Positions 4,101 through 55,463 of a stretch of DNA of 55,463 bases are shown in pieces. A program made the translations under genes and the position numbers. Source of the DNA: Bacteroidales bacterium (GTDB taxonomy: Bacteria; Bacteroidota; Bacteroidia; Bacteroidales; UBA932); contig JAFUWY010000021.1 in the NCBI GenBank assembly GCA_017477245.1, positions 1 through 55,463 on the forward strand, in the 5' to 3' direction. Position 1 is the stretch's first letter. The number at the start of each line of letters is the position of its first letter. Under the pieces are notes generated by a model. That model had not been told where the DNA came from. It saw only the letters and a list, made by a program, of their open reading frames with translations, and searched no databases.

Positions 4101-4287
4101 CGCCGCCGGCTTCCGGGGCGGTACCGGTCTCTACAATGCCGGCTCCTACGGGTACTATTGGTCGTCCTCACTCTCCTCTTCGACCGACTCGGGCTGCGCA
4201 TGTTACGTGAAATCCGATTCGAGTAATGTCAATAGGTTCAACGACGGCCGCTCCAACGGCCAATCCGTCCGTCCCGTCTCAGAATAA
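1162..4287 (+). CDS. Surface lipoprotein: fimbrillin-like head, four BIG_2 domains, two FISUMP/lectin-like domains
   Basis: The 1041-aa protein begins with a lipoprotein signal (MKRINCVLAALVMVLAGSC, lipidated Cys19), so it should sit on the outer membrane, probably surface exposed. Residues about 30-275 resemble fimbrillin/Mfa-like lipoproteins. About 280-475 form a first FISUMP-type domain (WATMNIG, FAWGETK, WRTPTMSEW). Four bacterial Ig-like group 2 repeats follow at roughly 476-562, 564-648, 649-736 and 738-822, each with a W-S-S-S/D motif. The end, 826-1041, is a second FISUMP domain (WATMNVG, WRMPTDDEW, YYWSSSL) closing with NGQSVRPVSE. That ending is typical of Bacteroidales proteins diversified by DGRs: a C-type-lectin fold whose last 40-50 residues vary. 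Start chosen at 1162 for signal peptide and RBS. Ligand binding or adhesion is inferred. Confidence 0.8.
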   Translation: MKRINCVLAALVMVLAGSCSRMEENIVGTEPIQGSTLTFRATQGDNPGTKTALQEDGSIWWSKDDAINVFHGNAKGQFTTDISTPAATATFSGTLEGDAGDATVYWGVYPYNETNSFDGTGVTLVIPSEQKGVPGTFADKLNPSVARSETESLSFYNVGSWFVFTVGSEGITSATFKGNNGEDIAGKVKVTIGSDGKPVAEVLEGVKSITVTPEDGGSFAKDKEYRIVLLPQTMTKGYTITLYKGNQSTDCVVNKEAVFERSMFRGKHTVDSGHWHGDYVDMGEGQLWATMNIGAASETEVGAYFAWGETKSKTSYGWDNYAWGESGTSLTKYVLQSSYGTVDNLSVLSSSDDAATASWGEGWRTPTMSEWQWLYSNCDRSIETVDGVTGFKFTSRIDGYTTNSIFIPAAKYYDGSSLVEGEGKVSFYWTSSLHSENSGYAQSNGLSQTYDILNGETPNYRYLGLPVRAVRTLPTSVTGIELDQTSLTMELGDSPFTLGATVSPANATNQTILWSSSDVSIASIVPNGNVCAIGASGVGSATITATTVDGDYSASCVVTVTGVQTTGVTLDKTTLILGPGETYQLTATVQPENASVKTVKWSSSNPDDVAVNEEGLVTALALNGSSTITATTVYGEHTATCEVTVKYVEVTSVSLDKTSLSLSAGASTTLTATTLPEEASNPVVVWSSSDDSVVKISSYDGHVATITADADCRGGTAAITAACVNGTITATCEVTVTVPVEEVVLSNEELHLYIGDNFQLGASVRPVYATNQNITWSSSDDSVVSVDSNGLLVTKKVGSAIITVTTEDGGRTDTCEVTVVSGDPLNGHAYVEMGVTSADGKVLKWATMNVGATSETDYGEYFAWGETKTKENYSWETYKWMQKDQSDWMYITKYTYADGITSAIWYDSDDNFIGDGITELESTDDAASANWGSTWRMPTDDEWAQLMDKSNFTWEWDPTRNGYTVTSTISDYKGNSIFLPAAGFRGGTGLYNAGSYGYYWSSSLSSSTDSGCACYVKSDSSNVNRFNDGRSNGQSVRPVSE
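4138..4284 (+). other. Candidate DGR variable region (VR) at the 3' end of the lipoprotein gene
   Basis: The last 49 codons contain a run of NNC/NNT codons for Asp, Gly, Cys, Ser, Phe and Arg (GAC 4186, GGC 4192, TGC 4195, TGT 4201, GAT 4216, AGT 4222, TTC 4237, GAC 4243, GGC 4246) at positions that are Asn or Tyr in relatives I recall. This is the expected footprint of adenine mutagenesis of AAC/AAT/TAT template codons. The end (GQSVRPVSE) is the invariant part. Neither a template repeat nor a reverse transcriptase is visible in the window, so the call rests on the target side only. Confidence 0.4.
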
Positions 4288-4318
4288 TGTCGGCAATGGC
4301 CTTTGGCCCAGCCGTCCT

Positions 4319-4340
4319 GCTGACTGCGCATGCGGTCAGC
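4319..4340 (+). repeat. Hairpin downstream of the candidate VR
   Basis: GCTGAC at 4319-4324 pairs with GTCAGC at 4335-4340, and the intervening TGCG/TGCG can extend the stem with two G-T pairs. It starts 31 bases after the stop codon. DGR targets of the Bordetella phage type carry a hairpin or cruciform a few bases after the VR; this is a possible counterpart. Confidence 0.4.
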
Positions 4341-4374
4341 ATCAAGGAGTCAATTCTTGTGCGAAGCCCAGAAA

Positions 4375-4391
4375 AACGGCCGCAGGCCGTT
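4375..4391 (+). repeat. 7-bp hairpin AACGGCC-GCA-GGCCGTT
   Basis: A perfect 7-bp stem with a 3-nt loop, followed by GAAAAACG. It lies between the VR-proximal hairpin and the terminator. It could assist termination or be part of the VR flank. Confidence 0.4.
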
Positions 4392-4402
4392 GAAAAACGT
4401 TG

Positions 4403-4434
4403 AAGGGCGCATCCTCTTTACGGGATGCGTCCTT
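4403..4434. terminator. Bidirectional terminator hairpin between convergent genes
   Basis: AAGGGCGCATCC (4403-4414) pairs with GGATGCGTCCTT (4423-4434) with one G-T pair and an 8-nt loop. It lies between the lipoprotein gene (+) and the DUF1016 gene (-). On the minus strand a T-rich run follows after a few bases; on the plus strand ATTATTCTT follows. Confidence 0.7.
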
Positions 4435-4469
4435 CATTATTCTTCCGGTTGAAAAACAAAGGGAAGTTT

Positions 4470-12768: not shown

Positions 12769-12792
12769 TCTAACACTGATTATCAATCACTT

Positions 12793-12832
12793 ACAAAATA
12801 ACCTTCGGAGATTTTTCCGAAGGTTATTTTGT
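12793..12832. terminator. Bidirectional terminator, perfect 17-bp stem
   Basis: ACAAAATAACCTTCGGA (12793-12809) pairs without mismatch with 12816-12832; loop of 6 nt. It lies 24 bases after the S9 peptidase stop. The stem is A/T-rich at its base, giving a U tract in either direction, and it separates two convergent operons. Confidence 0.85.
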
Positions 12833-12866
12833 AAATACCTGATTATCAAATATGTCTCACAAGAGA

Positions 12867-35618: not shown

Positions 35619-35620
35619 CA

Positions 35621-35649
35621 AGAAGCCAGTCGCAAGACTGGCTTCTTTT
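35621..35649 (+). terminator. Terminator after tRNA-Asp
   Basis: AGAAGCCAGTC / GACTGGCTTCT, perfect 11-bp stem with a GCAA tetraloop, followed by TTT. Confidence 0.9.
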
Positions 35650-35786
35650 GTACTACCCTGTCCCGGCCTCTGGCCGCCCAAATCTCTCTAACCCCCTGTC
35701 GCTCCCGCGATATCCGGTATAATTGACATTTTCGGTTGGTAAAACACCCTGTAAGCATTTGATTTATTTGCATTTATATCCACTTT

Positions 35787-35887
35787 ATTGAAACTGGTTC
35801 CGATAAGGTGGTGACAGGTCAAGGTAATCTCCGTAGCACGCATACTGCGCGTGATTGAAACCGGTTTCGAAAGGTGGTGACAGGTTA
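35787..35887 (+). repeat. Two 33-34-bp direct repeats separated by 33 bases
   Basis: Copies start ATTGAAAC at 35787 and 35854 and end GGTGGTGACAGGT. They are 67 bases apart and differ at a few positions, one being a one-base deletion. The second contains the palindrome GAAACCGGTTTC. The spacing and ATTGAAAC start recall a CRISPR repeat-spacer unit, but only two copies exist and no cas gene is near. Confidence 0.6.
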
Positions 35888-36180
35888 ATAATAAAAAGAC
35901 GTCAAAGATGTCCGGGGCGGGGCTCTTCTCCCCTCGGGCTCCCCTGTCGGATTCGATTCCTAACCCTGGGACCGGGACAGACAACGTGGTGCGCAAAGCC
36001 CTTTTTTGCGTGATAAGGAAGTCGCTGATTATCAACAAGAACTAAAAATTACTATTGCTGAAAATACCACTGATTTCGAAAAGATGCACAGTATCAATTA
36101 CTTCCTCATCACGCTTCGTCGCCGAGGGAGAGAGGAGAGAGGAGAGCGAGAGAGTGTCGGCAGCGGCAAATGTATGTTGT

Positions 36181-36303
36181 GGGAAACAGGAGCACCCAAT
36201 AGAAAAGGCCTGCGGGGTGTCCGTGTTTCCCAAGGGCCGAAATCCGGCCCTTGGGAAACACCCGGGCCCAACTGAGACCGTCAGAACGGCATCCTTGTTT
36301 CCC
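36181..36303. repeat. Two 51-nt palindromic units joined by a perfect 17-bp hairpin
   Basis: Units 36181-36231 and 36253-36303 each begin GGGAAAC, end GTTTCCC and are exactly 51 nt long. Their junction, 36223-36261, is a perfect hairpin with a 17-bp stem and loop AAATC. Unit spacing is 72 nt. Confidence 0.8.
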
Positions 36304-36334
36304 ACCGCTGCGGGCTACAAACTTTTTGGCATTA

Positions 36335-36544
36335 CCAGGGGCGCACTGCCCTATCTCCGCCCCTGGCGACCTGGTTTCCTCTCTGCCAGGGGCAAAAACT
36401 AGCCTCTTTGCCCCTGGCAGGCGATTTTCCTCGTTGCCAGGGGCTGTGGGGCCTTGATTTGCCCCTGGCAGGCGGTTTTCCACGTTGCCAGGGGCTGTGG
36501 GGCCTTGATTTGCCCCTGGCAGGCATTTCCCCACGATGCCAGGG
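36335..36544. repeat. 51-bp tandem hairpin array (array 1)
   Basis: CCAGGG recurs at 36335, 36386, 36437, 36488 and 36539, a constant 51-base step. Each full unit has arms GCCAGGGGC and GCCCCTGGC, a 16-nt loop and a 17-nt linker containing TTTTCC. The two middle units are nearly identical; the outer ones diverge in loop and linker but keep the arms. Confidence 0.93.
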
Positions 36545-36572
36545 ACAGTAGGACCTGTCTTCTGATCGTGCA

Positions 36573-36689
36573 GCCGTTCGGGGAGGGTCTGGCGAAGGCT
36601 CAGCCGCAGCAGGGGCCGTCGGCTCGGCCCCGGTTCCCGCGCCAGCGGGAAGCGAGGATGGAAGCCGAGCCAGGCCCTCCCCGAACGGC
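36573..36689. repeat. Branched palindrome with 21-bp arms
   Basis: Arms 36573-36593 and 36669-36689 (start GCCGTTCGGGGAGGG) match inversely at 20 of 21 positions. The interior holds GGGGCC-N8-GGCCCC and TTCCCGC-GCCA-GCGGGAA hairpins. The plan (long arms, inner hairpins) equals that of the element inside uvrD. Confidence 0.85.
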
Positions 36690-36767
36690 AAACGGGGCAA
36701 ACGAGGCAAACGAGGCAAACGGGGCAAACAAGGCAAACAAGGCAAACAAAGCAAACGTGGCAAACGA
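36687..36767 (+). repeat. 9-bp tandem repeat GGCAAACNN, nine copies
   Basis: Nine consecutive 9-mers, eight GGCAAAC plus one AGCAAAC, with the last two bases GG, GA, AA or GT. It begins inside the right arm of the branched palindrome. Confidence 0.9.
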
Positions 36768-36848
36768 TCCGGACAGGCAAGGCCGCTTTTCACATTTGTT
36801 CCATTTGTTTTCGGAATCATGCTATCCGGTCATTTCAGTCCGGAAATC

Positions 36849-36880
36849 TTTGCGAAAACCCCCGATTGTACCTAACTTCG
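36849..36880 (+). promoter_or_regulatory. Promoter of the xylanase/esterase gene
   Basis: TTTG at 36849-36852 and TAACTTCG at 36873-36880 are 20 bases apart, matching the -33/-7 spacing of Bacteroidetes promoters; the leader would be about 15-20 nt. Confidence 0.55.
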
Positions 36881-36899
36881 TGAACCAACTGAACCTTGA

Positions 36900-39504
<2,605 letters not shown>

Positions 39505-53476: not shown

Positions 53477-55102
53477 ATGAGACAGCCCCTATCCCTTCTC
53501 CTCGCGCTCCTTCTCACCGGGTGCGCGCACACCGGCCTGCTATCCCCGGAAGAATCCGGCATGATCCTCCCGACCATGGGCTGGAGTTCTTGGAACACCT
53601 ACCGGGTCCATATCTCCGACTCCCTGATCATGCGGCAGGCGGATGCCATGGCCGCGAGCGGCCTGCGCGACGCGGGCTATGACCATATCAACATAGACGA
53701 CGGATATTTCGGCGGCCGCGACGCAGCAACCGGCAAGCTGCTGATCCATCCCACGCGATTTCCGGGCGGGCTGAAACCCGTGGTGGACCATATCCATGGA
53801 CTGGGGCTCAAGGCGGGTATCTACAGCGACGCCGGGACCAATACCTGCGGCAATTATTATGACCGGGACACGATCGCCCGCGGTGTGGGCTTCTACGGTC
53901 ACGACGAAGAGGATGCGGACTTTTTCTTCCGTGAGCTCGGTTTTGATTTCATCAAGGTGGATTTCTGCGGCGGCAACGCTCCGCAGAATACCGACCGGCT
54001 GGCGCTGGACCCGCAGGAGCGCTACACCGCCATCCGGAAGGCCATCGACGCCACCGGCCGCAGGGACGTGCGGCTGAACGTCTGCCGCTGGGATTTCCCC
54101 GGAACCTGGGTGCGGGACATCGCCACCTCCTGGCGCATCTCCCATGACATCACGGACCGTTGGTGGTCTGTCCGGAGCATCATCTCCCAGAGCCTCTATC
54201 TTTCCGCCTATGCGGGCGGGGGACATTATAACGACATGGACATGCTCGAGGTGGGCCGGGGATTGAGCCCCGAGGAGGACAAGACCCATTTCGGCCTCTG
54301 GTGCATCATGGCCTCCCCGCTGCTGATCGGATGCGACCTGACGACCCTGCGGCCGGAAACGCTCGACCTGCTCACCAACCGCGAGTTGATCGCCCTGGAC
54401 CAGGACCCGCTGGGCCTGCAGGCCTATGTGGCGGCGCATGAAGGCGATACCTACGTCCTTGTCAAGGACCTGCAGGAGCGCTTCGGGCGGACGCGCGCCG
54501 TGGCCTTCTACAATCCCTCCGACGGGCCCTGCACCGTCGGCGTGGACCTGGCGGACATCGAGCTGGCCGGGACCGTCCAGGTCCGGGACCTGTTCGGGCG
54601 CTGCGACCTCGCCCCCGTCTTGGGACGCCTGGAGGCCGAAGTCCCGGCGCATGGCGTGCGCATCTTCCGCCTGACCGCCGAAACGCGTACCGAGCGCCGC
54701 CGCTACGAAGCCGAGACAGCCTGGCTGAGTGATTACCAGGAGCTTTACAACCCGGTCGCCTTCCATACGGCGACCTATGCGCCCGTGGAGGGCTGCTCCG
54801 GCCGGATGGCCGTGACGCAGCTGGGCTACAAACCCACGAACGACCTGCAGTGGCGGGACATCTACAGCCGCCGGGGCGGCGAGTACCGCCTCACGCTGCG
54901 CTGCTTCTCCCCGGAGGACCGGATCATCTATCTCTCCCTCGGGACAGGGCCCGGCCAGACGGTCCGGGTGCCGGCTGCGCCCGGCTGGCAGGACGTGACG
55001 CTGACGCTCCGGCTGGAGCCCGGCGTAAACTGCCTCCGGCTCTGCAACGACCGCGGCCCGATGCCGGACATCGACTACCTGGATCTGGAGCCGCTGCGCT
55101 GA
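53477..55102 (+). CDS. GH27 alpha-galactosidase lipoprotein
   Basis: The 541-aa lipoprotein (MRQPLSLLLALLLTGC, Cys16) is a GH27 enzyme that removes alpha-galactose from galactomannan, raffinose-type sugars or host glycans. The barrel begins MGWSSWNTYRVHI and INIDDGYF; the nucleophile is Asp162 in FIKVDFCGG and the acid/base Asp224 in WRISHDITDRWWSV. GGGHYNDMDMLEVG and LDQDPLG are typical. Residues about 300-400 are the C-terminal beta domain, and about 410-541 (RRRYEAETAWLS to the end) a CBM35/CBM6-like domain. It follows the ligase by 2 bases, an odd partner for lipid genes. The 51-bp array 2 starts about 45 bases after the stop. Confidence 0.94.
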   Translation: MRQPLSLLLALLLTGCAHTGLLSPEESGMILPTMGWSSWNTYRVHISDSLIMRQADAMAASGLRDAGYDHINIDDGYFGGRDAATGKLLIHPTRFPGGLKPVVDHIHGLGLKAGIYSDAGTNTCGNYYDRDTIARGVGFYGHDEEDADFFFRELGFDFIKVDFCGGNAPQNTDRLALDPQERYTAIRKAIDATGRRDVRLNVCRWDFPGTWVRDIATSWRISHDITDRWWSVRSIISQSLYLSAYAGGGHYNDMDMLEVGRGLSPEEDKTHFGLWCIMASPLLIGCDLTTLRPETLDLLTNRELIALDQDPLGLQAYVAAHEGDTYVLVKDLQERFGRTRAVAFYNPSDGPCTVGVDLADIELAGTVQVRDLFGRCDLAPVLGRLEAEVPAHGVRIFRLTAETRTERRRYEAETAWLSDYQELYNPVAFHTATYAPVEGCSGRMAVTQLGYKPTNDLQWRDIYSRRGGEYRLTLRCFSPEDRIIYLSLGTGPGQTVRVPAAPGWQDVTLTLRLEPGVNCLRLCNDRGPMPDIDYLDLEPLR

Positions 55103-55463
55103 TCCGGTACGGCAGTTAGCACCTCGAATAAAGACGTTTCGAACATTTCCCCGTCTCTCTCCCAGGGGCGGAGATGAGGCGCAGCGCCCCTGACAGTCGG
55201 GGAAAGCGGTTGCCAGGGGCGGAGAAAGGCCTCCGTGCCCCTGGCGGACGGGGAAAGCGGTTGCCGAGGGCGCAGAAGGGGCGCAGCGCCCCGGGCAGAC
55301 GGGGAAAGCGATTGCCAGGGGCGGAGATGAGGCGCAGCGCCCCTGGTAGTCGGGGAAAGCGGTTGCCGAGGGCGCAGAAGGGGCGCAGCGCCCCGGGCAG
55401 ATGGGGAAAGCGATTGCCAGGGGCGGAGAAAGGCCTCCGTTCCCCTGGCGGACGGGGAAGCGG
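55103..55463. other. Gene-free end of window filled by repeats
   Basis: No open frame of note starts here on either strand. Apart from about 45 bases after the GH27 stop, the whole stretch is the tandem array described next, which runs off the window. Confidence 0.85.
55147..55463. repeat. 51-bp tandem hairpin array (array 2), truncated by the window end
   Basis: GGGGAAAGCG recurs with starts of the surrounding block at 55198, 55249, 55300, 55351, 55402 and 55453 (the last copy lacks one A), always 51 bases apart. Each unit has a palindrome and a 17-nt linker containing GGGGAAAGCG. Three unit types alternate: arms GCCAGGGGC/GCCCCTGGC with loop GGAGAAAGGCCTCCGT; the same left arm with GATGAGGCGCAGC; and GCCGAGGGCGC/GCGCCCCGGGC. 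The arms are those of array 1. Confidence 0.95.

Follow-up and report, generated by a model that had tools for sequence, protein, structure and literature searches.

Dispersed hairpin pairs and arrays of fixed spacing beside a divergent RAYT-like gene in Bacteroidales: a probable REP/RAYT system of unusual form

The best-studied systems of REP sequences and RAYT (TnpA-REP) transposases are proteobacterial. HUH-Y1 transposases act on single-stranded DNA, and in the minimal elements of the IS200/IS605 group (PATEs) the Y1 transposase recognises two subterminal hairpins on one strand. According to the account in PMC6006769, REP types as a rule have one full-length gene each; the same account describes for the Bacteroidetes a TnpA-REP subclass 2.6 (mean length 179 aa, motifs NH[LIV]H and YIH[QN]NP), the genes of which are flanked by 'atypical secondary structures' with copies elsewhere in the genome. 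In P. fluorescens SBW25, REPs form arrays spaced at 112/72 bp (PMC3116915), and BIME pairs are described as inverted REPs with a variable linker (PMC8266576). RAYT-like genes with flanking inverted repeats other than GTAG REPs are described as TIRtrons or TIRYTs (PMC3733652).

In this study, we analysed a DNA stretch of 55,463 bp (the window), which is the entire contig C17 of a Bacteroidales genome of 2.38 Mb in 48 contigs (G000), and followed two arrays of hairpins found in it through this genome and its relatives. For profile searches, a covariance model of the single unit (R1) was built from 45 units. The features in the window are as follows.

36317..36520, minus strand: array 1, four 51-bp hairpin units (R1 matches at 36317-36367, 36368-36418, 36419-36469 and 36470-36520, all minus)
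36334..36367: array 1, hairpin unit 1
36385..36418: array 1, hairpin unit 2
36436..36469: array 1, hairpin unit 3, with a 9-bp stem as DNA on both strands, fold z -1.4 (plus) and -2.2 (minus)
36487..36520: array 1, hairpin unit 4, with the same loop as unit 3
55161..55463, plus strand: array 2, six 51-bp hairpin units, truncated by the contig end
55212..55245: array 2, well-paired hairpin unit, DNA fold z -2.1 (plus) and -2.9 (minus)

The 51-bp hairpin arrays that a sequence-only reading had reported at these two loci are real, and every step measures 51 bp. Counted by their hairpins, array 1 (36335-36519) consists of four units (from 36335, 36386, 36437 and 36488) with three steps, and array 2 of six units (from 55162, 55213, 55264, 55315, 55366 and 55417) with five; the six and four given earlier as steps are correct as numbers of units. 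In array 1 the arms GCCAGGGGC/GCCCCTGGC enclose a loop of 16 nt, and the 17-nt linker carries an A-tract on the minus strand. This unit structure agrees with the earlier description of arms, loop and linker, but not with its constancy of the arms, as the array 2 units at 55264 and 55366 have the variants CCGAGGGC/GCCCCGGG. The opposite orientation of the arrays was upheld by the profile, and the higher-order repeats, with periods of 102 and 153 bp, were recovered as well. When the palindrome was searched with 32 nt and at most three mismatches, 11 matches were found in the window, 10 of them inside the arrays, compared to 0.92 ± 0.91 in shuffled sequence. At gathering thresholds, no Rfam family matched in the window except one tRNA. 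The arrays do not have the make-up of CRISPRs: arms, loops and linkers all drift, and loops recur between units.

The end of contig C47 carries the same array type, including a 55-nt stretch identical to array 2 (window 55171-55225; L088), and C17 and C47 may be the two sides of a single assembly break within the array. The island around array 1 (window 35620-36900) is dense in other repeats, namely a GCGTGAT...ATCACGC element at ~36005-36117 resembling one beside a RAYT-like gene on contig C43, TGGGAAACA/TGTTTCCCA hairpins at 36180-36290, a large palindrome at 36573-36689 resembling one beside a RAYT-like gene on C22, and a 9-bp GGCAAACGA array at 36687-36767. Distant from both arrays, window 12776-12853 resembles repeats near a RAYT-like gene on C27.

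Across the genome, the palindrome was found at 134 places with at most two mismatches, compared to four for the reversed control. R1 gave 163 matches with both strands counted, and a profile search of the fetched loci resolved 157 units, which fall into 31 groups and, counted by hand, into 25 loci on 18 contigs. Spacing between units was 51 bp in 119 of 126 cases, 52 in four and 50 in three, and arrays reach up to 14 units. On the A-rich strand, the consensus reads GCCAGGGGC GGAGAAGGGnCTCAGC GCCCCTGGC AGCAnGGAAAAnnnGTT. Units run head to tail; all hits lie on a single strand in 26 of the 27 groups with at least two hits, the group on C48 being mixed. The repeat is REP-like in being a 34-bp hairpin, within the 20-40 bp typical of REP palindromes, that is dispersed over 25 loci and mostly extragenic. 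A 5′ foot of the form GT[AG]G is absent, the sequence being mostly GTTG in this genome, with no fixed tetranucleotide in other arm types. The possibility that a 51-bp period is a general property of tandem repeats here was rejected, as it was seen in 0 of 20 arrays of period at least 15 in a 400-kb sample away from the known loci. Tandem repeats of 51-52 bp with another sequence (CCGGGCAGGATAAGGCC...) lie in the same islands at L083:1866-2055 (C41), L090:3352-3592 and 4208-4441 (C8) and L087:3856-3992 (C20); these may be the repeats of a further RAYT that uses the same architecture.

None of the 29 array stretches of this genome overlaps a called gene. The statement that array 2 has no open frame was wrong, as minus-strand frames cross it, and the argument against coding built on it was wrong in detail; at locus C48 the same repeat lies in frame within an ORF. 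There (L089:2087-3418), in a slightly different run of the gene caller, the units occupy 17 codons each of a methyltransferase-like ORF and encode 17-aa repeats, SPLPGAKTGPSAPGNPI; the same gene holds elements in G104 and G121 (L108, L118).

An exact-arm search of 60 relatives found nothing, probably because most arms differ. With R1 at E<=1e-3, 15 of 151 genus genomes matched, the own genome included, and exact 51-bp-step arrays were present in several; most hits after the own genome were obtained from G143 (41), with 17 in G104 and five in G087. In loci fetched from seven relatives, 30 of 34 spacings were 51 bp. Groups in the relatives (n=40) mostly comprise two hits (24), with three in five groups and one in 11, and these dimers stand alone between genes. 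In a partner test free of the motif (at least 7 of 9 bp, 16-nt loop; hits below 18 bits and all of G150 and G082 excluded), 38 of 41 hits had a palindrome at exactly ±51, compared to one hit with a palindrome at ±48. The element thus described consists of two 34-bp hairpins with centres 51 bp apart, that is, of four 9-nt half-sites in alternating orientation spaced by 16, 17 and 16 nt, often with a GGCC-like loop centre and with an A/T tract in the linker. The dimer was modelled as well (R3, a covariance model with 93 positions), with matches in 90 of 400 genus genomes at E<=1e-3, the own genome included, and at E<=1e-5 in none of 392 other genomes sampled from the order. The exact A-type pattern was found in 21 stretches of the GTDB species collection, all titled uncultured Bacteroidia or Bacteroidales bacterium and several originating from the rumen or omasum of yak, buffalo or goat; it was absent from viral contigs. 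Hairpins in the relatives are nearly symmetric, and no clear orientation of the two hairpins to each other emerged: all hits scored best on one strand in 18 groups, compared to 11 groups with mixed strands. Eight of 35 groups overlap ORF calls, and codirectional, divergent and convergent gene contexts all occur with no clear preference for gene ends.

Covariation was analysed with a single element from each of 46 genomes (93 nt in 37, 94 nt in six, and 95, 91 and 84 nt in one each); the counts use the 37 elements of exactly 93 nt, the nine others being dropped. Between species the arms vary widely, e.g. TCCGTGTGC, GCCGGGCAC, GCCGGGAGC and GCCAAGGGC. Watson-Crick pairing of the arms amounted to 90.4% and 90.7% in the two hairpins compared to 67% and 66% in shuffles, none of 1000 of which was as high; these shuffles leave species relatedness in place. 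One arm position shows all four pair types (17 GC, 11 AT, 5 CG, 3 TA). Pairing is also kept across the linker (89%) and between the outermost arms (86%), and loops and linker of the 37 elements show no covariation. The four 9-nt half-sites thereby change together between species. Mismatches in the arm cores numbered 29 within hairpins, and 35 and 31 between hairpins; hairpin and double-strand half-site recognition are not separated by these data because pairing is hardly better kept within hairpins than between them. The arm covariation expected by the sequence-only reading is therefore strong between species, but within this genome it does not exceed shuffles: arm changes are uncompensated there, with 401 of 500 shuffles as high as the observed pairing, and conservation of the structure inside the genome is unsupported. 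In alignment A4, which is mostly A-type, covariation was not seen either, probably owing to the near absence of other arm types among its rows.

To look for a partner gene, we clustered 322 proteins encoded at most 4 kb from elements at 71 loci in 23 species. Four families occurred in three species each and none in more. The earlier observation of a CAZyme gene beside each array holds for one neighbour each, a GH10+esterase gene (36903-39035) at array 1 and an alpha-galactosidase gene (53477-55102) at array 2, but the far side of array 2 is the contig end; with no family recurring in more than three of the 23 species, the CAZyme neighbours look incidental. One three-species family is a protein of 308-319 aa encoded beside elements in the own genome, G121 and G150. 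The RAYT-like gene that the earlier reading had proposed to look for was found in this family, on contig C7.

C7:27031-27978 (= L037:4532-5479), minus strand: RAYT-like gene, 315 aa, bracketed by arrays C7:26267-26989 and C7:28360-28725

The bracketing arrays have 14 and 7-8 units. In G121 the homologue lies between two dimers, and in G150 it adjoins elements of 52-bp period, with more units ~1.7 kb away on the opposite side. The C7 protein had no Pfam or NCBIfam match at E<=1, and for the G121 protein nothing relevant was found in these two collections; the G150 protein matches NF047646 (REP-associated tyrosine transposase) with E 2.9e-5. At E<=0.01, PF01797 was found in seven of 23 homologues (best 7.9e-5) and NF047646 (REP_Tyr_transpos) in 11 (best 1.8e-6). 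Curated cut-offs of the RAYT/Y1 profiles were not reached by the partner protein, and its match to IS200-type transposases in the PDB was weak (E 0.06). A single-sequence fold of one homologue (mean pLDDT 39) was too poor to use. The histidine pair of the HUH motif and the tyrosine (H79, H81 and Y137) are invariant in seven RAYT-like proteins, among them the four of the own genome that Pfam detects, and in the 23 homologues, and are probably the catalytic residues. Judged by its sequence, the C7 gene is an intact, very divergent RAYT-like HUH-tyrosine transposase gene. It was absent from the phage and plasmid records searched. Of 400 genus genomes, 331 have members of the RAYT superfamily at E<=1e-20, and therefore mere presence says little. 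In G143, G104 and G087 a close C7-type RAYT was not found (best E 1e-46, 2e-76 and 1e-32; completeness 83, 78 and 93%).

The adjacency of elements and RAYT genes was analysed at the loci of further homologues. For each of the 20 best-scoring homologues in the genus (15 via L254-L268 and five further copies via L309-L313; three of the 20 are the seeds), R3 detected an element no more than 1.5 kb away at E<=1e-3, and 14 of them have elements on either side. At the 16 lower-scoring loci (L269-L283, L314) such an element was present in two, L276 (E 3.3e-4) and L278, giving 22 of 36 RAYT loci overall. No R3 element lies within 1.5 kb of any of 17 other Y1_Tnp loci (four from the own genome, 13 from six related genomes). 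A motif-free scan for two palindromes (at least 8 of 9 pairs, equal loops of 14-18) detected hairpin pairs at 50-52 bp at 20 of 30 RAYT loci (L254-L283), two of 17 other Y1 loci, one of 100 4-kb tiles of the own genome and none of 30 block-shuffled loci; at 10 of the 30 RAYT loci no 50-52-bp pair was found. Of 13 RAYT loci without an R3 match, 10 have 50-52-bp pairs with unrelated arms, among them TTTGTTCC/GGAACAAA and TAATTGTGT/ACACAATTA; at one of these ten (L274), the pair lies ~1.2 kb from the gene. The arm types agree with the phylogeny of the transposases: when nine types, assigned by eye, were placed on a tree of 26 RAYTs from which the partial L279 and the proteins lacking an evident type had been omitted, nine changes were required (minimum 8; shuffled mean 17.5, lowest 14). 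At the genome level, a RAYT at E<=1e-100 was present in 16 genomes, 14 of which were R3-positive compared to 76 of 384 others (p 3e-8), a test that is partly circular because some of these RAYT-bearing genomes supplied R3. The two R3-negative genomes despite such a RAYT are G064 and G093, and G064 nonetheless has an element beside its RAYT.

Four further RAYT-like genes of the own genome lie at L041:1195-2076 (C16), L049:3597-4460 (C22), L050:3841-4770 (C27) and L051:3631-4548 (C43), each beside its own unrelated palindromes, like published TIRtrons. A link of the arrays to these four genes, which are detected by Pfam, was ruled out, as no R3 element was found there and the best R1 match had E 0.03.

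Evidence for mobility was obtained from one dimer of G143, which lies between two genes and is missing between their orthologues in two species, G089 having 1 bp where G143 has 138, and G008 14 compared to 155. An empty orthologous site shows gain or loss, not mechanism, and in this comparison no exact insertion ends, target duplication or cleavage site were found. The own genome has a different insert of 800 bp at the same orthologous site (L286, C13 ~91028-91827), which by eye looks like a ribbon-helix-helix/PIN toxin-antitoxin pair.

We consider it probable that the arrays are REP-type repeats belonging to the divergent RAYT-like HUH-tyrosine transposase encoded at C7, and that the hairpin pair with its fixed ruler is the substrate; among the three roles proposed by the sequence-only reading, the evidence favours that of a target for a REP-type (TnpA-REP/RAYT) transposase. 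Speaking against this assignment are the failure to find a close RAYT in G143 and G104, which are rich in elements but incomplete as genomes, and the missing GT[AG]G foot. The data establish association and covariation; we infer that this RAYT binds, cleaves and transposes the elements. The repeats would then be small, mostly non-coding elements mobilised in trans by the C7 RAYT. The protein, probably as a dimer, may bind one hairpin per subunit on single-stranded DNA such as the lagging-strand template, by which, as we propose, the linker length would be set by the protein. Cutting and rejoining near the hairpin feet could seed new pairs, and longer arrays might grow in 51-nt steps, either because strand transfer is repeated or because units slip or recombine in the ordinary way. 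The bracketed gene itself may be copied as a unit, because two or three copies of the RAYT are present in some genomes (G331, G082, G224 and G325) and every copy is flanked by elements of its own. We give about even chances to the wider proposal that a RAYT clade in one gut Bacteroidales genus uses a two-hairpin substrate with arms free to vary along with the transposase and a protein-fixed distance of 50-53 (usually 51) nt. If true, HUH-tyrosine transposases would gain a new class of substrate, whose spacing is read by a protein dimer along with its sequence and which forms tandem arrays by the addition of whole units.

The same half-site data can be read differently, as sites of a host DNA-binding protein with a nucleoid or regulatory role, the RAYT-like protein being a domesticated regulator or structural protein and the repeats having spread by recombination and not by transposition. 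The four alternating half-sites with their A-tract, their about equal covariation including the pairs across the linker and between the outermost arms, the lack of clearly stronger coupling within hairpins and of covariation in loops and linker, and a fixed spacing of about five helical turns would all suit such a protein, but the helical phasing suggested by the sequence-only reading is not established, as some lineages space their hairpins at 50, 52 or 53. With no strong gene context and all three gene orientations, with empty orthologous sites, and with a partner that keeps the HUH motif and tyrosine of a single-strand nuclease in 23 homologues, we regard this reading as unlikely. Still less likely are RNA stem-loops that act at transcript ends in termination or stability, which we rank as the least probable explanation: a mostly intergenic position and stable 9-bp stems are in line with it, but only the tRNA in the window matches Rfam, gene ends are not clearly preferred, the T-tract of the linker does not adjoin the hairpin and the loops lack internal covariation.

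Repeat dynamics without a cognate protein, i.e. plain minisatellites formed by slippage and unequal exchange, would account for the 102- and 153-bp higher-order periods with near-identical adjacent units, for the unequal number of units in the similar islands C17 and C42, and for loops that are more alike within dimers than across loci in G143 and G000, which is not clearly the case in G104. Slippage may well explain array length. It does not explain pairs at ~51 bp with unrelated arms beside a single RAYT clade, and it leaves the concerted change of arms between species and the dispersal unexplained; as a full explanation we therefore find it quite improbable. Chance duplication of a minisatellite had been named as the better explanation if the arrays were confined to two sites and lacked arm covariation, and the 25 loci of this genome and the strong covariation between species argue against it. 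The units could also be passengers in larger composite intergenic islands spread by the RAYT-like genes of C16, C22, C27 and C43, in keeping with shared stretches of up to 0.7 kb between islands at different loci and with further palindromes in these islands that are also found beside those genes. Neither these four genes nor the 13 Y1_Tnp genes of six relatives have an R3 element within 1.5 kb, and the dimers of the relatives are isolated between genes, which makes this reading very improbable.

Pfam misses 16 of the 23 RAYT homologues at E<=0.01, and therefore a transposase may exist even for repeats to which annotation assigns none. Across this single genus the architecture is retained while the hairpin sequences are replaced, which provides a natural set of matched protein and DNA variants. 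Such variants could reveal the rules of RAYT recognition, i.e. which residues read the arm bases and what sets the ruler, and the paired substrates make the open question of how RAYTs move and amplify repeats directly testable. Among the papers listed in literature searches, none describes such an element, as judged by title or start of the abstract.

Compared to known systems, the elements share with the REPtron described in PMC6006769 short dispersed palindromes that flank an HUH-tyrosine gene on one or both sides and a single palindrome type per RAYT lineage. They differ in forming pairs and arrays at a fixed 50-52 bp with a 16-nt loop and without the GT[AG]G foot, in a protein of ~315 aa that is mostly missed by Pfam, and, with respect to the single-gene rule, in the two or three RAYT copies of the four genomes named above. 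Going by the description of subclass 2.6 in that paper, phylum and unusual flanking structures are alike, whereas compared to its table the proteins here are longer (~290-320 aa) and the C7 type has SHLH and YVNRNG as motifs. A two-hairpin unit is common to REPINs and BIMEs as they are described, for which tandem arrays are known too, but the elements found here keep a fixed linker length across many species, and the units of the own genome run head to tail. The other four RAYT-like genes of this genome resemble the TIRtrons/TIRYTs as described, and the C7 clade differs from these in being flanked by hairpin pairs or arrays and not by one pair of terminal inverted repeats. In contrast to PATEs, no defined element ends were found here, and the hairpins are palindromic enough to score on both strands. 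The arrays probably represent a REP/RAYT system of unusual form, in which hairpins are paired or arrayed at constant spacing and the arm sequence is replaced along with the transposase.
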